Part shown: positions 628 through 42,325 of the stretch, in pieces
Position numbering within the stretch: position 1 is the stretch's first letter
Layout: each line of letters opens with the position of its first letter
Virus record (IMG/VR): IMGVR_UViG_3300005577_000053
Location: 1 to 43,064 of that record
DNA length: 43,064 nt
Strand: one strand, 5' to 3'
DNA from: a virus
Position numbers and translations under genes: made by a program
The notes under the pieces: model-generated
Seen by the model: the letters and a program-made list of their open reading frames with translations, nothing else
What the model was told of the DNA's origin: nothing
Database searches by the model: none

Positions 628-711
628 TGGTGCGGGTGGAGAGATTCGAACTCTCAAGCCAAAAGGCGCGGAGGCTTAAACTCCGTGTGTATACCGTTCC
701 ACCACACCCGC
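628..711 (-). tRNA. tRNA-Leu (anticodon UAA), CCA encoded
   Basis: Class II tRNA folded by eye: acceptor stem GCGGGTG/CACCCGC, anticodon stem CGGAG/CTCCG with loop TTTAAGC (anticodon TAA at 678-676), long variable arm with GCC-TTTT-GGC, T arm GAGAG-TTCGAAT-CTCTC, discriminator A and an encoded CCA at 630-628. Length is 84 nt. It decodes UUA (and probably UUG by wobble), which may supplement a host poor in this isoacceptor. It sits between the 260-aa gene and the 63-aa membrane protein gene, so it is probably processed from the leftward mRNA. Confidence 0.95.
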
Positions 712-4370: not shown

Positions 4371-4828
4371 GCCTCAAAACGTGCCCCCTGTTGGTGCACT
4401 TGTGTTGTTTATGTGCTATCAGTGTGACTGGCTGTAACCGTACATGCGACAACGGATGTTATGTAAACAGACAGAGCATGCAGTCGAATGCATGTGTGGA
4501 CCTGTCGTTTTGGGTGTGATAGGCTGGAAGGTTGTCCCTCGGGAGAGGGGGTGGGGGAAAACTTGGCTGCGTGGGGAAAGGTGTAACCCACCTTGCTATG
4601 CTGCTTATATTTTTTAGAAACAGACACGTCTGCCTTTTGGTGAATGGAAAACAGGCTGTGGAATGGGATGAAGCTACCCAGACACCTCTTTGGTGTTTTG
4701 AGAGCTTCTAGACATTTGTAGCAACCCAGCAAACAGTATTGATGTGCGGGTGGAACTCTCCAACTTCCACTGCACTAACGTTCCGTGGAGGACAGTGATG
4801 TTTATTTCATCTGTAAGTACGTCAAAGC

Positions 4829-5019: not shown

Positions 5020-5147
5020 TACATTAACACTACGTATTAATGTAAAGAAAGAAAAAGAAGAAGTCTACGACTTCCATACGCTGTAGAACAAACGTTCTCC
5101 GCTTGGTGCTACGAACGTACACACAACACGCTGTCACCAAGACAGCG
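5020..5147. repeat. cluster of four short hairpins and heptamer repeats
   Basis: Perfect inverted repeats: TACATTAA/TTAATGTA (5020-5027/5037-5044), GAAGTC/GACTTC (5060-5065/5069-5074), AGAAC/GTTCT (5085-5089/5094-5098) and CGCTGTC/GACAGCG (5129-5135/5141-5147). The heptamer ACGCTGT occurs at 5078, 5128, 5251 and 5341. The segment lies between the two rightward promoters. Confidence 0.6.
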
Positions 5148-13652: not shown

Positions 13653-14705
13653 ATGTCTGTTTCTATCAATACTGCAACTGCCGGTGGTGGTGGGGGTTCT
13701 AGTTCCTCAACTACTGCAGTAAATATTCCTGCAGCAGGATATAGAGTTGCCTTGCGGGCCTCCCAACCTACCAACGGTAACTTAATCGATCAATCTAGTG
13801 TCGGCCGTGTTCTGAACTTGAACACTGGACTTTTCCCGGTGAGCTGGGTAGCCAGTGGCGCTGTGACTCTCAATACATACAGAACTCCCGTTGTATTGAA
13901 CGGATTTATTTATAAGGCCACGGTGGGTGGTACAAATGGTGCTACAGAGCCCACGTGGCCAACCACCGTTGGCGCTACGGTTGTGAGTGGCACCGTCACC
14001 TACACATGCGAAAAAGGGCCGTGGTATACAGACGTGTCTGGTTATCGCTTATTTAGATCATTGTCTACTTCACAAATTGGGGTAGCTGGTAACTATGTGA
14101 TGCCCGCCACCACTGACCAATGGGACATGAACAGCGGACAAAGCCTAATTGTTCATTTAAGAGTCAAACAAAACTGGGACACCTCATATCCTTCTGCTGC
14201 AGCGGACGGTGCTGTTATTTACGGTACTCGTGATTTAACAGGCACAAACAGAGGATTCAACATACTAGCTTATGGCGCAGCAGGAAATAACGCATTGCGT
14301 TTTATTGTGCGGGGTGATAGCGGTGTATTGTCTGGTATTATGTCCGCAACTTCTACTAAAAGACAAATGGACGGTAATTTACGTGACATTGTTTTTATGG
14401 TGGATGGGGTTCTAAAGACTGCTTATTGTTTTACTGATGGGGTTGCTTTAGGGCAATCTGACATGACCGGCGCTGAGATTTGCCCGCATGGCATGAATTT
14501 AGTATCTATTTTGGGATCTACTGCCGGAGCATATCGAGTCGTCGGTGGCGGTATTAACAGTATTTCTCCAACTACTACATTTGAATGTTCCTACCAAGCA
14601 ATTGATGAGGTTGTTTTAGACGGTCCTTTACCAGCAAACATTCAAGCCATTGCTTCTTGGTTCTCTACAAGGGACGCTCTTCTCCCGCAAAGTTTGGTGC
14701 AATAA
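13653..14705 (+). CDS. tail fibre-like protein with lectin/LamG-type domain
   Basis: 350 aa. Starts with a Gly/Ser-rich linker (AGGGGGSSSSTTAV), then a carbohydrate-module-like stretch with TEPTWPTTVGATVVSGTVTY (residues about 85-115), followed by a concanavalin/LamG-like region (QSLIVHLRVKQNWD, RGFNILAYGAAGNNALRFIV, VDGVLKTAYCFTDG). The combination fits a receptor-binding or capsid-surface adhesin. The stop overlaps the ATG of the next gene as TAATG, so the adhesin, esterase and hydrolase are co-translated. Confidence 0.6.
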   Translation: MSVSINTATAGGGGGSSSSTTAVNIPAAGYRVALRASQPTNGNLIDQSSVGRVLNLNTGLFPVSWVASGAVTLNTYRTPVVLNGFIYKATVGGTNGATEPTWPTTVGATVVSGTVTYTCEKGPWYTDVSGYRLFRSLSTSQIGVAGNYVMPATTDQWDMNSGQSLIVHLRVKQNWDTSYPSAAADGAVIYGTRDLTGTNRGFNILAYGAAGNNALRFIVRGDSGVLSGIMSATSTKRQMDGNLRDIVFMVDGVLKTAYCFTDGVALGQSDMTGAEICPHGMNLVSILGSTAGAYRVVGGGINSISPTTTFECSYQAIDEVVLDGPLPANIQAIASWFSTRDALLPQSLVQ

Positions 14706-15508
14706 TGCGGAATGTCCTGTTAATTGTTTGTGGGCAGTCCAATCAACAGGGGTCCACTCTTACGGATAATGGTGGTACTGGGACTGGAGTAAAATTTACT
14801 TCTGTTTATTCAGGTAATACAGAGCCATATCTTCCAAATAACAACGGAGCGGGTAGCTGCTGGCCCCTACTAGAAGACTTAGCTGCTGCTAGGGGCATTA
14901 AACTCATTATTAAGAATTGTGCTATCGGCGGTAGCTCTATTCTGCATTGGACTGGGATTGTCGGTTCCACTCCCACAGGAAGTACCTCTGCTCCCCTAAC
15001 AGCCAATAACATGAGTGGCAGCGGGCTATCAGGAGGGACAGTGCCTGCTGTAGAGGGACAAAGCGATTTCGATCCCTTTGGCTTCTGCGCAAGGGCACGA
15101 GCGCAAATAGTGGCATATCCACAAATCACGGATGTAATTAGTTTATGGGCAAATGCAGAATCTGATGGTGGTACGTCACAAGCCAACTATCAGGCTGCCT
15201 TGGAAAGCATAAGCAATTATATGCTGGCAAGCAATTCAAAAAAGCATTTCATTGGACTAAGTTCTAGTGGAAATAATTCCCAGGCCAACATGGATAAGCT
15301 TCAAGCAGCACGGCTTGGTGCCCTGTCTTCTTTAATTGGTGCCGGTAAATCTGTGGCCGAGGGTGCTGATTTGTATGTCAAGTTTGGAATGAATGCTCCC
15401 CTCTATCCAGAGAAAACTCAGCCTGCTACTAAGGTACACTTAACAGCAGAAGGACAAAGAGTTCACGCGGCCCTATGGGATAGTTCTTTCCTGGCTGGGG
15501 GATATTAA
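14705..15508 (+). CDS. SGNH/sialate-O-acetylesterase-like carbohydrate esterase
   Basis: 267 aa. ATG at 14705 overlaps the previous stop (TAATG), which rules out the longer in-frame start. Motifs: MRNVLLIVCGQSNQQGS (block I, nucleophile Ser in GQSNQQG), IIKNCAIGGSSILHW (block II Gly), LWANAESDGGTS (block III, like the GESD of carbohydrate esterases) and KVHLTAEGQRVHAALW (block V, catalytic His). Predicted to remove O-acetyl groups from host surface polysaccharide during adsorption. The tail or head-fibre location is inferred from neighbours. Confidence 0.75.
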   Translation: MRNVLLIVCGQSNQQGSTLTDNGGTGTGVKFTSVYSGNTEPYLPNNNGAGSCWPLLEDLAAARGIKLIIKNCAIGGSSILHWTGIVGSTPTGSTSAPLTANNMSGSGLSGGTVPAVEGQSDFDPFGFCARARAQIVAYPQITDVISLWANAESDGGTSQANYQAALESISNYMLASNSKKHFIGLSSSGNNSQANMDKLQAARLGALSSLIGAGKSVAEGADLYVKFGMNAPLYPEKTQPATKVHLTAEGQRVHAALWDSSFLAGGY

Positions 15509-31754: not shown

Positions 31755-32710
31755 ACAAACTCAGTCTCGGACCAGTTGCGGCTGTATTCGTTACCAACTG
31801 CACTAAAAAAATCATTGTAGGTATAATTGTTAATGCCATTGTAAAACCACAAAGCGATTGGATTATAGGGAACCTTCCATTCGCTATGGAGGCCCATATT
31901 GCCTAGGCAGATGTTAATACGGCTCTTGACAAACTCTTCTAGTTGGTGGGCCGTGATACCTTTAATTGGACCCTTCTCAAATATCTTAGCGATAATTGCT
32001 TCTTCATGCTTCAGAAGCTGTTCCGCTATTCCACGAATTACTTGGTGGTCTAGCTTGGCTCCAGATTCTTTAAAGAGCCAGGCTCCTGCTTCGCTATGAA
32101 GGTTCTCATCTCTAACGGAGAAGTTGATGCCTCTAACAATGTTTGTAAGCTTGTTCTTCCCTTGAGACTGGAAATGCTTAAGGAAAGCGAAAGAGCTGTA
32201 GAGCACAGCGCCTTCAAGCATGGAGAACATTGGAAGGAAATACTCAGTGTCTTCATATTGCTTAATAAAGTCCATTCGCTGCTTTAAGACTGGATCGTCT
32301 ACATAGCTGCTGTAAAACTCGTCTGTGCTTAAACCAAGAGACTGATTAATTTTGTCATAGAACGGTTGATGAACAGCAAGCTCAAACATACCGAAAGTAG
32401 AAGCCATTCGTTGAATTTCTGGCCGTGGAAAAGCATCCATAATCCTGCCAGTCCAATAGTCACGCCCAGCAAACAGTTCGTATAGACTAAATAACTTAAG
32501 AACCGTAAGAACGCCATGCTTCTCAGCTTCTGTGAGATTTGTGAGAATGTCATGTACATCTTTCTCCACTCGAATTTCGTCTGGCAGCCAGAACACTGAC
32601 AGCTGCTTCTTGGTGAACTCATCCGCTTGCGGAAAGCGGACAACGAACGACTCGCTAGGGTCTGTTATTTTATTTGGCAAGTAAATAGAGTCCAATGTTA
32701 GAGAACGCAT
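31748..32710 (-). CDS. nrdB: ribonucleotide reductase class I, small subunit
   Basis: 320 aa from ATG at 32710 (MRSLTLDSIYLPNKITDP); an upstream TTG at 32725 is less likely. Diiron/tyrosyl features: FELAVHQPFYDKI (Glu, His and the radical Tyr four residues after His), SMLEGAVLYSSFAF (Glu) and SVRDENLHSEAGAWLF (ExxH). The first Glu-His pair is spaced ExxxH, not ExxH as in E. coli. C-terminus TEFVW provides the NrdA-docking tail. The 5' end overlaps a 47-aa membrane protein gene by 41 bp in another frame. Confidence 0.95.
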   Translation of the reverse strand: MRSLTLDSIYLPNKITDPSESFVVRFPQADEFTKKQLSVFWLPDEIRVEKDVHDILTNLTEAEKHGVLTVLKLFSLYELFAGRDYWTGRIMDAFPRPEIQRMASTFGMFELAVHQPFYDKINQSLGLSTDEFYSSYVDDPVLKQRMDFIKQYEDTEYFLPMFSMLEGAVLYSSFAFLKHFQSQGKNKLTNIVRGINFSVRDENLHSEAGAWLFKESGAKLDHQVIRGIAEQLLKHEEAIIAKIFEKGPIKGITAHQLEEFVKSRINICLGNMGLHSEWKVPYNPIALWFYNGINNYTYNDFFSAVGNEYSRNWSETEFVW

Positions 32711-35500: not shown

Positions 35501-35729
35501 GGAGGGCTGCCTCTCTTTCTTTTAGTTCTGGAATGTCAAGCCGATTGGCATAGGTTTCTTTTGTCAGCTTGCCAGTGCCTAGCCACGACATTGGCAGATA
35601 TTCCATGCCATCAACTTCCATGTCGAATAAATAGGCCCCAAGCCAGGGCCTTGCCTGTCCAACCACATAAGCGAAGATGACAGCTGGTGTGCCATCCTTT
35701 GTTGCTAAGCTGAGAGGGAACGATTCCAA
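35463..35729 (-). CDS. hypothetical protein, 88 aa
   Basis: The frame is open with a TTG at 35729 as the first usable start (MESFPLSLATKDGTPAVIFA). An aromatic-rich core (ARPWLGAYLFDMEVDGMEYL, PMSWLGTGKLTKETYANRLD) and a charged C-terminal helix. No family recognised. Starts inside the exonuclease 3' end. Confidence 0.65.
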   Translation of the reverse strand: MESFPLSLATKDGTPAVIFAYVVGQARPWLGAYLFDMEVDGMEYLPMSWLGTGKLTKETYANRLDIPELKEREAALLEAHARAKAQDD

Positions 35730-36418
35730 ATTTCACCACTTTCTCGTTGCAGCCAAAGCAATTGGCCGTTTTTAATAAACCGCTCGTCGTCGTTATAGAG
35801 GCCCCGCACCAGCTCAATCATCTCTTCCTCTGTGGACAGATGATCAATGTGCTTGGCAGCGCCAACCTTCCCAATTCCCTTAACACCGAAGATGTTATCT
35901 GCCGTGTCACCAATGAGCATTTGCTTGTAGAAGAACCGCGCCCCGTCTAGGGGCGTAACATAGAAATGCTCTTCTGGTTTCACCCATTGCTTGCCGTAGG
36001 AGGTGCCTGCAAACTCCCAGCTATAATGCTTTCCAGGAATCTGCCGCATGTCCTTGTCCAGCGTACAGACAACAAACTTGATATCCTGTTTCCAATACTT
36101 GGTTGCCTGAATGGCCACAGTGTCATCAGCCTCACAATTGTCCGACACCTTGGCACCCCATTCAGCCACCAGGTGCTCCCGCAAGGGCTCCAAGTACTTG
36201 GGCCTAGGCTTATCAACTCTATTGGCTTTATATTCAGGGCAGATTTGTTTACGGAAATTATCGGGGCCTGTCAGGTAGATTTCGTGCTCAGTGCTTTCTG
36301 TCTTTTGCAAGATGCGTAAGACCAGGTCATTAACACGATAGATACCAAGCTCAAGGCTTTCATTCTCAACTGATGCAGCAACCCTAAAACTAATAAGGTC
36401 GCCGTCAATAATAGCAAT
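35705..36418 (-). CDS. 5'-3' exonuclease / flap endonuclease, non-canonical start
   Basis: 237 aa when read from the ATT at 36418. N-terminus (I)AIIDGDLISFRVAASVEN matches the first Asp of FEN-type nucleases; further motifs: EADDTVAIQATKYW (acidic cluster), VVCTLDKDMRQIPGKHYSW (D-K-D), LIGDTADNIFGVKGIGKVGA (GD..DN..G..GIG, helix-hairpin-helix). Removes primers and degrades DNA like T7 gp6 or the Pol I 5' nuclease. No ATG, GTG or TTG lies at or upstream of the conserved IDGD; the ATT overlaps the previous stop as TAATT where other junctions have TAATG. AAAGGGG is 11 bases from ATT and 8 from an adjacent ATA (36421). Confidence 0.85.
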   Translation of the reverse strand: MAIIDGDLISFRVAASVENESLELGIYRVNDLVLRILQKTESTEHEIYLTGPDNFRKQICPEYKANRVDKPRPKYLEPLREHLVAEWGAKVSDNCEADDTVAIQATKYWKQDIKFVVCTLDKDMRQIPGKHYSWEFAGTSYGKQWVKPEEHFYVTPLDGARFFYKQMLIGDTADNIFGVKGIGKVGAAKHIDHLSTEEEMIELVRGLYNDDERFIKNGQLLWLQRESGEIWNRSLSA

Positions 36419-36702
36419 TATGGCTTATACCCCTTTAGAAACTGGTGCAAGAACATACTGAACGAATCAATCTCTCTCTCATCATGCTGCTCAGTTGTCT
36501 TGCCTTGTGCATAATAAATTGCATGGCACAACTCGTGCAGGAAGGTTTGTTCTTTAAGCTCCTGGGGAATATCTTCTCTAATCTCAATGGTGAGCTTTTC
36601 AAGCCAACACCTACCGAAATAGTCACAGGCCCGTTCAGACTGCTTGAAATACTTCACCTGCCATTTATAGCCCCCAAGAATAAAGCTATTGGGGATGCGC
36701 AT
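36418..36702 (-). CDS. HExxH-containing predicted metalloprotease, 94 aa
   Basis: ATG at 36702, one base after the ssb stop. MRIPNSFILGGYKWQVKYFK, then ELKEQTFLHELCHAIYYAQG (HExxH zinc-binding motif) and HDEREIDSFSMFLHQFLKGY with a downstream Glu that could be the third ligand. This small zincin-like family is common next to ssb and exonuclease genes in phages. Substrate unknown. Longer in-frame starts would run through ssb and are rejected. Confidence 0.8.
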   Translation of the reverse strand: MRIPNSFILGGYKWQVKYFKQSERACDYFGRCWLEKLTIEIREDIPQELKEQTFLHELCHAIYYAQGKTTEQHDEREIDSFSMFLHQFLKGYKP

Positions 36703-36703
36703 A

Positions 36704-37240
36704 TCAGAAGGGCACGTCGTCAGCCATGTCATCGAAGCCAGTGCCTGTGGGGCCCTTCTCCTTGACAGCCTTGTCGAACACGAAGTCAACATACTCCTGT
36801 GCAAGGGCAAGAACCTCAGCTGTCTTGGGAGGTGCCTTAGCACCAACAGCCAGCGTTGCAACAGCAGCACTCAGGGAGCTTTGCTTGACAATTAAAACCT
36901 GGCGGTTTGCGCGTTCTTCTGCCGTCTCATAGTTGCTTCGCACTGTTGCGGCAGTGCCTTGCACAATGCCGCTCGCAGAGCCCGTAGAGGCTGCTGGTGC
37001 GCTTCCTGCAGGGCTCAGGGCAGTCCAGTCCCAGTAGCCCTTCTCGTTCTTGACCGAGGTCACCTCAAAGGTCTTGCCAACGGCTGACGGATCGGACAAG
37101 ACTTTGTAGGCTTTCTCAGCAGCACCAAAGGAGAAAATCTTCTTTCCTCCCACTTTGCCTTGGTCATCTTTGTATGCCGTGTCGGCAATGTTATACTTGC
37201 CCTTGTTTTCAATAGTCACTGAGAGAATGGTAACTTGCAA
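36704..37240 (-). CDS. ssb: single-stranded DNA-binding protein
   Basis: 178 aa; TTG at 37240 with AAGGA six bases upstream. N-terminal OB-fold-like beta segments (MQVTILSVTIENKGKYNIAD, KVGGKKIFSFGAAEKAYKVL, GKTFEVTSVKNEKGYWDW), a disordered Ala/Ser-rich linker and a helical part, ending in an acidic tail DDMADDVPF of the kind that recruits replication proteins. Location next to exonuclease, polymerase and helicase genes supports the call. Confidence 0.8.
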   Translation of the reverse strand: MQVTILSVTIENKGKYNIADTAYKDDQGKVGGKKIFSFGAAEKAYKVLSDPSAVGKTFEVTSVKNEKGYWDWTALSPAGSAPAASTGSASGIVQGTAATVRSNYETAEERANRQVLIVKQSSLSAAVATLAVGAKAPPKTAEVLALAQEYVDFVFDKAVKEKGPTGTGFDDMADDVPF

Positions 37241-37621: not shown

Positions 37622-37789
37622 TTAGCTCTCCTCATCGCCATTACGATACTCTGAGCAGGCTTCGTCGTACCCATCCCAGTTATCCACTCCATGACTCTTT
37701 AGGCATTCCAAGAACCATTGATCGTCACAAAGCTTTTGATATTCTTTGATTTGAATTGTTATGTACCCATCTGGGTCGTGTTCAAGCAT
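37622..37789 (-). CDS. small hypothetical protein, 55 aa
   Basis: ATG at 37789 with AAGGAG seven bases upstream, overlapping the polymerase stop by 8 bp. MLEHDPDGYITIQIKEYQKL, then CDDQWFLECLKSHGVDNWDG. The pattern DPDGYI..K-EY-.L..D-.FL.CL...GVDNW.GY is recognised from small phage proteins of unknown function. Confidence 0.75.
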   Translation of the reverse strand: MLEHDPDGYITIQIKEYQKLCDDQWFLECLKSHGVDNWDGYDEACSEYRNGDEES

Positions 37790-38502
37790 AAGCAATCTCC
37801 TTCATATTTGCTTGATTCATTCCTGCCTTCACTTCCCCTTCGAGGGGTACAACCCAAGCATATCCAAATAGCTTTTGTATGTTCGCTCGTAAGTCTTGGA
37901 ACACCTCATAGAAAGTGTTAGCAGCAAGGTGTACATGTGACCTAGGACAATCAACAGTAATCGAGTCATGTACCGTTTGAATGAACTTGATGTCGTCATA
38001 TTTCTTAAGCCTGTTGAATGCAGAGATACGAGCAATCATCATAACGTCTGCCCCTGTGCCCTGAACCGGGAAATTCGTGAGAGTGGTCCATGGGCAAAAC
38101 AGCTCCCCCCTCTTGTCAATGTTGGGTACTTTCCAAAAGCGTCCCAGTGGGCCAATAATTGGTTCATTTGCCATTACCTTCTGTGCCCATCTGTTGTGGC
38201 ATTCATTAATGCCTTTGTATTTGGCAAAGAACTTCTCGTTCACCCCGTCCCAGTATTTACTATCGCTGCTAACATGCATGAAAGCAGGGTCGTTAGCAAA
38301 ACTCCACCCAGACCCGCGGAAAATGGTCCTGAAGAGATATATCTTGCTAATTAGTCGGGAGGGGAGGTTAAAAGCCTCTCTGTTAAGCTCATGGGTGTCA
38401 TGTCCATCAATCACCTCTTGAATACCAACAGGGTCTCTGCTCAGCTCTAGAATGGTCCTCCATTCGGGTCTAAAGCTGCTTAGCGTCCACGGACACAAGC
38501 AT
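37782..38502 (-). CDS. polA: family-A DNA polymerase, C-terminal piece, with frame disruption in motif A
   Basis: The palm/fingers half. AAGGAGG lies nine bases before ATG at 38502, which reads MLVSVDAKQL then TAG (38472-38470). The rest is in another frame from 38465 down: EWRTILELSRDPVGIQEVID. Motif A should read VSVDAKQL-EWR; dropping seven bases (TAGACCC, 38472-38466) restores it with the catalytic Asp and the Glu/Arg at standard spacing. Other motifs are intact: O-helix PSRLISKIYLFRTIF (Arg, Lys, Phe) and motif C FIQTVHDSITVD. The uninterrupted frame is open from 38498 (TTG). Sequence error, +1 frameshifting at CTT TAG, or recent inactivation remain possible. Confidence 0.8.
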
Positions 38503-39943: not shown

Positions 39944-40058
39944 ATTCTATGATGTAATACTCTCTTGTTTCTTCTGGAAGTCTTTCCCAAGGAATTGCTC
40001 CTTGCCAGCCAAACGTAAGATTTGAAAACCACTCCCGTGGATTTTTAGGTGTACTCAT
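39864..40058 (-). CDS. small hypothetical protein, 64 aa
   Basis: ATG at 40058 overlaps the helicase stop (ATGA-type). MSTPKNPREWFSNLTFGWQG, AIPWERLPEETREYYIIEYD and a Gly/Pro-rich end. The 3' third overlaps the polymerase gene in another frame by 80 bp. No family recognised. Confidence 0.65.
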   Translation of the reverse strand: MSTPKNPREWFSNLTFGWQGAIPWERLPEETREYYIIEYDKRFVYGEPPGGGCGDSEVPPSEPL

Positions 40059-41302
40059 AAGTCTTTGTACCTGGCCGCCTCTTGATCCATCATCACTTCC
40101 CAGCGAGCATGTCGTCTCTTAGGGTCTGTGTCAGGATCGCCAAGAAGCTTGTTCTTAGAAATGTTTAGGAACCTAATCTGGGCATAAGCTTCATCATGCA
40201 CTTTACCAATCCCCAAGATGAAGTCTGCGGTGGCTTGTTTACTGGTCTTTGCATTTGCTACATTCCCCATGGTGAGCCATTTCATTCCCTCACCTGATCC
40301 ATCCGCTTGAGTCACCCCAATGATTGGACACTGCTTAGCAAGGGTGCGTAGCCATTCATAAATTTTACCCAGTCTGAGGTCCTCTCTGTCAGCATCAAAC
40401 CCCTGGACATGGTCAACCTGATCCACCACCACGACACAAGGTTTGTATTTCTCAATAAGCTTCTCAACATGAGTTTTGTTGAAGTTGCCCAGTCTAGGCA
40501 ATAGAATCTTTCCCTTAGTCTTCTCCATGAAGACCTGTTGTGCTCTTGCTCTATTACTAAGTATCTGTGCCAATGTAGCACCAAGCACTGACTGGTAGTA
40601 CCTCATGAGGATGTTGTCGTCCTCACCTTCGTTGTTGAGGTGCAGCACTGGGCCTAGGTTTTGAGCGACAGCTTGTTCTGCAAAGTAGCTGCCTTCGGAT
40701 GTTAGGAAAGTGGTTTTACCGGTCTCTGGGCGAGCGAACAAGAAGCCAAAGTTTCCTGGGCGCAAACTACCCAATGACTTGTTCAGGCTGTCCATGCGCC
40801 AGCGCAAGCCAGGCTTTAGATAAGTCTTGTCAAGTAGTTGCTCTAAATCTGGCTCCACAAACTCAAACTCATCTTGAGAAGCAACAGCGTTTCCACTGTC
40901 CCATTCCTCCAGAAGCTTGAGTTGCTCCTGTACCCCTGCCATGGCCCGGTTGTCGCCTTCTGAGGCGTTGTAGGCGGCCATGGAAAGCTCTTTGAGCAGC
41001 TGTCCCTTCTTCAGGGACACACAGAGCTGCTTAGCAGCGTCTTTGTCAACATCGAGAGTTTTCAAGTTCTCGAACAGCTGGATGTAGAACTCACGCTCAC
41101 TTGGTCGACTTGCGAAGAACAGGGTAGCAAGGGTGTCTACAGACATCGAGGTGTTAGCCTCGTCGTTGAAATACTCCTGGATACAGCGATAGATGCCTTG
41201 TAGTTCTTTGGGGAGGTCTTTCGCTTCCAAGATGGAACTCACAGTGGTGTAGCTCTCTCGCTCCAACGCAAGCAAGAGAACACCGAGTTCTGGAATTACA
41301 AT
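40055..41302 (-). CDS. DnaB-like replicative helicase, probable AUU start
   Basis: About 415 aa. N-terminal domain IPELGVLLLALERES..., then a RecA-like motor: Walker A LFARPETGKTTFLT (residues about 188-201), Walker B CVVVVDQVDHVQGFD, and GVTQADGSGEGMKWL near the DnaB H3 region. No ATG or GTG precedes the N-terminal domain; the first TTG (41275) would cut it by nine residues and has no ribosome binding site. ATT at 41302 has AGGAG exactly six bases upstream (41313-41309). A 10-bp hairpin lies just before that AGGAG and a near-consensus promoter about 110 bases further upstream. Confidence 0.9.
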   Translation of the reverse strand: MVIPELGVLLLALERESYTTVSSILEAKDLPKELQGIYRCIQEYFNDEANTSMSVDTLATLFFASRPSEREFYIQLFENLKTLDVDKDAAKQLCVSLKKGQLLKELSMAAYNASEGDNRAMAGVQEQLKLLEEWDSGNAVASQDEFEFVEPDLEQLLDKTYLKPGLRWRMDSLNKSLGSLRPGNFGFLFARPETGKTTFLTSEGSYFAEQAVAQNLGPVLHLNNEGEDDNILMRYYQSVLGATLAQILSNRARAQQVFMEKTKGKILLPRLGNFNKTHVEKLIEKYKPCVVVVDQVDHVQGFDADREDLRLGKIYEWLRTLAKQCPIIGVTQADGSGEGMKWLTMGNVANAKTSKQATADFILGIGKVHDEAYAQIRFLNISKNKLLGDPDTDPKRRHARWEVMMDQEAARYKDL

Positions 41303-41315
41303 GGTTTTCTCCTAT

Positions 41316-41454: not shown

Positions 41455-41592
41455 TTACGTTCCAGCAACAATCATTAGGTAGGCAATGTAGGCGAAAGGG
41501 CTGCAAAAAATGAGGAACACTGTAGCCTGTGCAAAACTCCACCCATCAGGCTCGTTGCGATGATACAAAAAATAGTCCAGAAATTTCTTCAT
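41455..41592 (-). CDS. small membrane protein, 45 aa
   Basis: ATG at 41592 with AAGGAA eight bases upstream, inside the primase 3' end. MKKFLDYFLYHRNEPDGWSF, then a hydrophobic hairpin-like stretch (FLIFCSPFAYIAYLMIVAG). It lies just upstream of the helicase promoter. No family recognised. Confidence 0.65.
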   Translation of the reverse strand: MKKFLDYFLYHRNEPDGWSFAQATVFLIFCSPFAYIAYLMIVAGT

Positions 41593-42325
41593 CTGTAAGT
41601 TCCTTGGGGTCTTGCTCGGTGATGACCACCCTTGCCTGCATCCCTAGCATCTTTGCTCTCTGGGCAATCTTCATAGCTTCCTTTGCCTTGTCGTGGTCTA
41701 GCCACACCACCAAGCTTCGATATAGCTTTGCCAAGCGTGTCAATTTGCTTGTAGGTAGGTTGGTACCTAACAGGGACATTGCATCGATTCTTCGCCCTTC
41801 TAGGGCTCCAGAATCTGCCAGGGTGATGGCACTGAGGCAGTCTTCTGTTAGGACCAGCTGCCTGGGTCCTTCCAGCGGTTGTACAGCCATTTGGTATATT
41901 GGGAGGAGACCTTCGTGTGGCCCGCTTGTGAAGTATTTCGATAGCTTCCTACCTCTCCAATCACTTTCGCTGAGATTCCGGGCTTGAAAGAACTGCTTGT
42001 CTCCTGTCCAGGGGAAGGTGAAGACAAGTTGATTTTTCGAGGGGCTGTAGCGCACACCTCTGGCAATAAGGGTTTCAATGGGCACATGATATTTTCCTAA
42101 CCAAGCAACAGCATCGCTGCCGAAATGAGTGGACAAATCATCGGGGAGAGGCTTAACGTCAGACACATCTTCTCTGTTGCGCTGAGCCTTTGCCACCAAT
42201 GGAGACATTGTGGGTCTGCTTTTGTCGTGACATGAGAAGCAGAAGCTCCCCCCGTCGTCATAGATCGCATTTGCATCACTACTCCCACAGTTTTCACATC
42301 GTATATGCCTCAAAAACCTAGCCAC
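41546..42325 (-). CDS. DNA primase, TOPRIM (T7 gp4 primase-like)
   Basis: 259 aa; GTG at 42325 directly after the previous stop. N-terminal zinc-binding domain IRCENCGSSDANAIYDDGGS with FCFSCHDK (C..C...C..C), then a TOPRIM domain with LVLTEDCLSAITLADSGAL (Glu) and SLVVWLDHDKAKEAMKIAQ (DxD). Makes RNA primers for the adjacent helicase; unlike T7 gp4, primase and helicase are separate genes here. The end overlaps the 45-aa membrane protein gene. Confidence 0.9.
   Translation of the reverse strand: MARFLRHIRCENCGSSDANAIYDDGGSFCFSCHDKSRPTMSPLVAKAQRNREDVSDVKPLPDDLSTHFGSDAVAWLGKYHVPIETLIARGVRYSPSKNQLVFTFPWTGDKQFFQARNLSESDWRGRKLSKYFTSGPHEGLLPIYQMAVQPLEGPRQLVLTEDCLSAITLADSGALEGRRIDAMSLLGTNLPTSKLTRLAKLYRSLVVWLDHDKAKEAMKIAQRAKMLGMQARVVITEQDPKELTDEEISGLFFVSSQRA

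Follow-up and report, generated by a model that had tools for sequence, protein, structure and literature searches.

Noncanonical AUH starts (H = A, C or U) are usually regarded as rare oddities in a handful of host genes. T4 gene 26 is a phage gene with AUU initiation, like the genes described here, but its AUU is an internal start for a smaller product and not the main start. The initiation factor IF3 spares start codons with a 3' G and discriminates against AUU, AUC and AUA (PMC4611024), and raised IF3 inhibits noncanonical starts (PMC2268962). An AUA or AUU start combined with an extended Shine-Dalgarno (SD) sequence lowers expression in S. aureus (PMC13009471). Escherichia coli infC and pcnB (AUU) and S. 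aureus infC, ccpN (AUA) and cvfC1 (AUU) combine AUH with a strong SD sequence, as our locus does, and near-cognate initiation of E. coli infC is IF3-sensitive and lowers output (PMC2268962, PMC13009471 and references therein), an effect that we infer for the phage. These host genes encode translation factors or act in plasmid copy and metabolism, whereas the genes considered here encode a phage helicase, exonuclease, primase and polymerase. A noncanonical start likewise acts as a translational brake in Streptomyces sigR, where a GTC start is repressed by IF3; this case differs in its codon, which is not AUH, and in being a host sigma factor gene (PMC5472188). Among phages, the exonucleases of MEP401, CVT22, CW02 and their relatives (Zobellviridae) share gene, motif and neighbours with our locus; they differ in starting mostly with ATG, GTG or TTG, and CW02 (ATT) is noncanonical like our locus.

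We analyzed a stretch of viral DNA of 43,064 nucleotides (hereafter the window). The features around its exonuclease junction are as follows.

35705..36421, minus strand: 5'-3' exonuclease (FEN/Taq 5'-nuclease-like), 238 aa from ATA, identified by PF02739 and PDB profile matches, with a match to PF01367 below the cutoff
36419..36421, minus strand: putative exonuclease start ATA, opposite the ATG of L001 and L002 (MIALIDGD) and at the modal distance to IDGD
36416..36418, minus strand: ATT, exonuclease codon 2 (Ile) by alignment and distance to the motif; less likely alternative start
36425..36427, minus strand: in-frame TAA closing the exonuclease frame upstream, read from the sequence
36430..36436, minus strand: Shine-Dalgarno-like AAAGGGG, 8 nt before ATA; duplex of -7.9 kcal/mol with a generic anti-SD
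36418..36702, minus strand: SprT-like ORF (PF10263, E = 1.6e-7), whose stop TAA overlaps ATA (ATAA)
36704..37240, minus strand: SSB-like gene with a TTG start and the C-terminus DDMADDVPF; homologues lie 5' of the exonuclease in relatives

The exonuclease matched 5_3_exonuc_N (PF02739) in Pfam with 50.6 bits against a cutoff of 34.3 (E = 2.4e-13), and the C-terminal SAM-fold domain PF01367 with 29.8 bits, below the cutoff of 40 (E = 8.7e-7). The solved structures closest by profile in the PDB include the Taq 5'-nuclease domain, T5 exonuclease and T4 RNase H. The N-terminal catalytic Asp motif, EADD, DKD and GD..DN are all present and are invariant columns in the family alignment A1. In relatives, the gene upstream of the exonuclease is usually this SSB-like gene, and in CW02, L057 and L184 it apparently comes directly before the exonuclease, its acidic C-terminus lying just 5' of it. 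The window differs in that the SprT-like ORF lies between the two and overlaps the exonuclease start.

The minus strand of the window carries TTTCTAAAGGGGTATAAGCCATAATTGCTATTATTGACGGCGAC. A preliminary description of this DNA had noted a TAATT that overlaps the previous stop before IDGD and the lack of any ATG, GTG or TTG upstream of that motif, and both observations were confirmed by direct reading: TAATT occupies 36420-36416, and the codons 3' of the closing TAA (36427-36425, minus strand) are GCC ATA ATT GCT ATT ATT, then GAC GGC GAC, with no canonical codon in this frame between the TAA and IDGD. The first is TTG 36310, well within the gene. L001 and L002, the nearest relatives found (45-50% identical), have the codons ATG-ATT-GCA-TTA-ATC-GAC-GGT-GAT and ATG-ATT-GCA-CTG-ATT-GAT-GGC-GAC, respectively, and the ATA-ATT-GCT-ATT-ATT-GAC of the window matches them codon by codon, with ATA in place of ATG. 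Because these relatives read M-I-A-L-I-D-G-D, ATT corresponds to Ile2 and ATA to the start. This alignment to the relatives' Met supports the noncanonical initiation that had been proposed for the exonuclease, but not a start at ATT or an ATG-to-ATT change at a TAATG junction, which had been its simplest form. The accompanying count of at least seven TAATG junctions elsewhere was roughly right, as one-base TAATG or TAGTG overlaps lie at 15508, 18439, 19137, 20594, 21916 and 24692. TAATG is nevertheless a poor template for this junction, because the start codon of the relatives aligns with ATA; the junction is therefore ATAA (36421-36418), composed of the SprT-like stop TAA (36420-36418) and the exonuclease ATA, akin to the common ATGA overlap and one G-to-A change away from it. 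Judged from the alignment, the exonuclease almost certainly starts at ATA 36421-36419 and not at ATT, and ATA is very probably its working start.

Initiation at ATT 36418-36416, giving M-A-I-I-D-G-D, is unlikely. This codon adjoins ATA and is near-cognate too, and in 4 of 160 ATG-start relatives the ATG lies at the same distance as ATT, three codons from the Ile/Leu of the xDxD motif; in 108 of the 160, the distance is four codons, which is that of the ATA in the window. A start at ATT would also stretch the SD spacing to 11 nt, as against 8 nt for ATA, and L001 and L002 both retain the pair Ile-Ala between Met and [LI]IDGD. In both motif distance and SD spacing, then, the better placed codon is the ATA 8 nt from AAAGGGG, which the preliminary description had held as the alternative.

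We gathered relatives from IMG/VR and GenBank and compared the start codons of 197 distinct exonuclease loci. Six loci had AUH at the expected Met position with no ATG, GTG or TTG before the conserved N-terminus: ATA in the window, L057, L184 and L102, and ATT in L262 and in the isolate Salinivibrio phage CW02, in which AAAGGAGGTGACTT precedes the ATT. A second IMG/VR record of the L057 type, L180, has the same ATA, with 8 mismatches over 5,371 bp. The change is well illustrated by L262, which reads ATT-CAA-CCA-CTG-ATC-GAT where its close relative L263 reads ATG-CAG-CCA-CTA-ATT-GAC. AUA and AUU are a minority among exonucleases (3% of distinct loci); ATG accounts for about 83% of loci and the rest are mostly GTG or TTG, and the nearest relatives of the window use ATG or TTG. 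AUH exonucleases occupy at least three separate parts of the tree; the six changes counted by the tree program are inexact, because two AUH exonuclease sequences recur there as unlabelled duplicates. Comparison of the junction among related phages thus shows that the noncanonical state recurs, the codon here being ATA rather than the ATT first suggested.

It is quite unlikely that the ATA is an error of sequencing or assembly, or a neutral mutation of recent origin, and that the real population carries ATG (ATGATT). The window is one contig from a metagenome, and pol2 on it also looks broken. A search for further contigs of this phage by a degenerate N-terminal pattern gave no second, near-identical record, so that the start base of the window is read from this contig only. 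However, separate lineages carry the same replacement at this very position, which makes chance or error improbable; the same class of replacement is seen in the isolates CW02 and QDWS535 and in the paired records L057 and L180, and AUH is frequent in the helicase, a strong SD sequence accompanying it in nearly every case.

An inactive or truncated exonuclease, with translation from TTG 36310 further downstream, is very improbable. Gene callers do pick such starts, as in CW02, where gp26 is annotated from 147 nt inside the gene, but this start would remove IDGD, whose first Asp is invariant and aligns with the N-terminal LVDG motif of Taq, and the remaining exonuclease ORF is intact and conserved; we rejected it for the loss of IDGD. 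Fusion to the SprT-like ORF by frameshifting, suggested by the seven bases that the two frames share and by the upstream AAAGGGG, is scarcely credible and was rejected, because AAAGGGG lies 5' of the exonuclease-frame TAA 36427-36425, so that a shift there terminates at once, no slippery heptamer occurs within the overlap, and the upstream gene in relatives is SSB rather than SprT-like.

The preliminary description had also mentioned a second replication gene with a noncanonical start, which was held to make a shared regulatory logic plausible. This second gene and a pattern shared across the replication module are borne out: the window helicase has an ATT opposite the ATG of the QDWS535 helicase, and AUH also occurs in the helicase, primase and polymerase genes of relatives. 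The relevant features of the window are as follows.

40055..41302, minus strand: DnaB-type replicative helicase
41300..41302, minus strand: putative helicase start ATT, opposite the ATG of the QDWS535 helicase; AUH at this position in relatives
41309..41313, minus strand: Shine-Dalgarno AGGAG, 6 nt before the helicase ATT; -7.3 kcal/mol
41546..42325, minus strand: primase, GTG start in the window and AUA or AUU in some relatives

Reading of its frame gave no canonical start codon for the window helicase, and TATAGGAGAAAACC-ATT-GTA-ATT-CCA-GAA-CTC aligns with ATG-ATT-CTT-CCT-GAG-TTA (MILPEL) of Alcaligenes phage QDWS535. A near-perfect hairpin, AGAGGTCTGTTTAGACAGACCTCT (41342-41314, minus strand), lies directly 5' of the SD sequence and the AUU start. 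A scan for helicases with the window protein alone returned no matches, and an alignment-based scan returned 80 further loci, 68 of them distinct. No canonical codon was found upstream in 21 of the 68, two of which (L362 and L376) were artefacts. About 17 of the 68, a count that takes in L336 with its canonical codons further upstream, had AUH at the Met position of their relatives, and two had CUG. Adding the window (ATT) and ctOsX528 (ATA) gives about 19 AUH helicases out of about 70. The G001 helicase starts with ATC, and at one helicase site the variants ATG-AAC-TAC-GAG, ATT-AAC-TAT-GAG, ATA-AAC-TAT-GAG and CTG-AAC-GTC-GAG were all observed. On the helicase tree (71 sequences), the well-supported branches call for 13 or more gains or losses, which indicates that the AUH state has been repeatedly gained and lost. 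CUG at the expected start with a good SD sequence was seen in the helicases of L313 and L317 and in pol1 of L346.

The wider survey combined a homology-anchored check of ten genomes with per-gene surveys. The primase of the isolate QDWS535 reads TAAGGAGGTAAGA-ATA-GCT-AAC-TTT, and ATT starts were found in the primases of L276/L280 and L312. AUH starts also occurred in pol2 (L024 ATC, L223 ATT), in pol1 (L317 and L318) and in the polB-like gene of ct2os315 (AAGGAGAATTAAA-ATC-AAA-ATT); AUH cases in these primase, polymerase and polB-like genes are rarer. Two gp39-like head genes have apparent AUH starts, ATA in G002 and ATT or ATC in ctOsX528 (sites at about 24540 in L288 and in L298 (G002 33848-)), and the trait therefore reaches beyond replication genes. 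No AUH was found in 402 genes for SSB (93), RNR (100), phosphoesterase (97) and HNH (112, with L085 left undecided). An early test, made before the helicase scan, gave AUH in 14 of 386 replication genes and 0 of 458 control genes (P = 1.5e-5), a value that is only indicative because the grouping was made after the data were seen, with a control set that included pol1, later AUH-positive in another sample. T7, SP6, phiKMV and LUZ24 showed no AUH in 60 homology-anchored genes, as against 10 of 296 genes from the ten genomes studied, a sample too small to decide. Automatic flags for a missing canonical start were discarded as alignment artefacts or frame breaks for the window SSB, L376, L362 and L382 and were left undecided for L085 HNH, L077 exo, L095 pol2 and L346 helicase. 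An unusual phage-encoded initiator tRNA was sought in the window and none was found; its sole tRNA gene is tRNA-Leu(TAA) at 628-711 (minus strand).

We also compared SD strength between classes of codons. Mean SD pairing was -8.2 kcal/mol for AUH starts, -5.3 kcal/mol for ATG starts and -2.5 kcal/mol for internal AUH codons, and pairing of -5 kcal/mol or stronger was found at all 16 AUH starts, 64% of 711 ATG starts and 18% of internal AUH codons; this contrast may be slightly inflated, since a few of the AUH codons were picked from adjacent candidates. The SD spacing was 5-8 nt for nearly all AUH cases and 4-5 nt in L262. Where ATG was replaced, the change almost always fell on its third base; CUG turned up in a few cases, and ACG, AAG and AGG in none. 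The stronger SD sequences and the third-base bias together form a pattern unlike that expected from errors or decay.

Frame breaks of another kind were observed in several genes, including one in the window.

37782..38502, minus strand: C-terminal half of a split family-A DNA polymerase (pol2), whose ATG frame meets UAG at 38472-38470 while the protein goes on in the +1 frame

The pol2 frame is broken just 5' of the motif A Glu in the window (38502-38470), L069, L078, MW202697 and L089. The sites read CAG-CTT-TAG-A in the window, TCT-TGA in L078 and MW202697 (L288 about 5030-5080), an in-frame CTT-TAG in L089, and CAG-CTT-TGA-G in L069, the same as the prfB +1 site; pol2 is intact in most of about 100 relatives checked, including L084, a near relative of L078. 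These breaks are candidates for a programmed +1 frameshift or for recurrent damage. The exonuclease of LUZ24 (L303, NC_010325; 22140-22185) contains an in-frame UAG at codon 11 (CTT-TAG-CTT), and many phages about 93% identical are 6 nt shorter there, so the LUZ24 group looks to carry a 6-nt insertion. Skipping TAGCTT restores the family spacing (IDGDVL-RYELG), and a short translational bypass is possible. In L077 exo, five extra bases at about 4001 break the frame at the first catalytic Asp (GAC-TCC-TAG-CTGAC).

Taken together, our reading is that the exonuclease and helicase of the window undergo genuine near-cognate initiation by fMet-tRNA, which throttles these replication enzymes; we place its probability at about 0.72, a figure led by the start codon. 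The position of the start codon, its recurrence, the SD strength and the gene bias are supported by comparison of sequences, while for the full throttle mechanism, with reduced output, IF3 sensitivity and coupling, we consider the chances roughly even. fMet-tRNA would pair with the first two bases of AUA 36421-36419, with the third mismatched; the weak AUA would be offset by the AAAGGGG Shine-Dalgarno and probably also by ribosomes that end the SprT-like gene at AUAA. The helicase would initiate likewise from AUU. Initiation at AUA, AUU or AUC is expected to be slower than at AUG because IF3 discriminates against all three codons. Such starts probably serve to keep replication enzymes, here a nuclease encoded downstream of the abundantly needed SSB, at low levels that perhaps respond to IF3. 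More tentatively, and in our view doubtfully, AUH could be a maintained control of the whole module, in which selection for IF3-sensitive initiation lets helicase, exonuclease, primase and polymerase swap AUA, AUU and AUC (and CUG); replisome synthesis would then track the IF3-to-ribosome state of the infected cell, with SSB and RNR exempt.

The AUH starts have consequences for annotation, because gene callers limited to ATG, GTG and TTG truncate such proteins. In the four public annotations checked, the start lies inside the gene and conserved N-terminal sequence is lost: CW02 gp26 is annotated from 14027, with the ATT at 13880; the QDWS535 primase from 32645, with the ATA at 32705 and CPNCGS lost; the ctOsX528 helicase from 1949, with the ATA near 1823; and the ct2os315 polB-like gene from 4530, with the ATC at 4692. 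Across wide evolutionary distances, AUH reappears at one and the same codon in a given phage replication gene, and it is found in roughly a quarter of the sampled helicases. Such phage starts would offer a natural, testable system for IF3-dependent control during infection.
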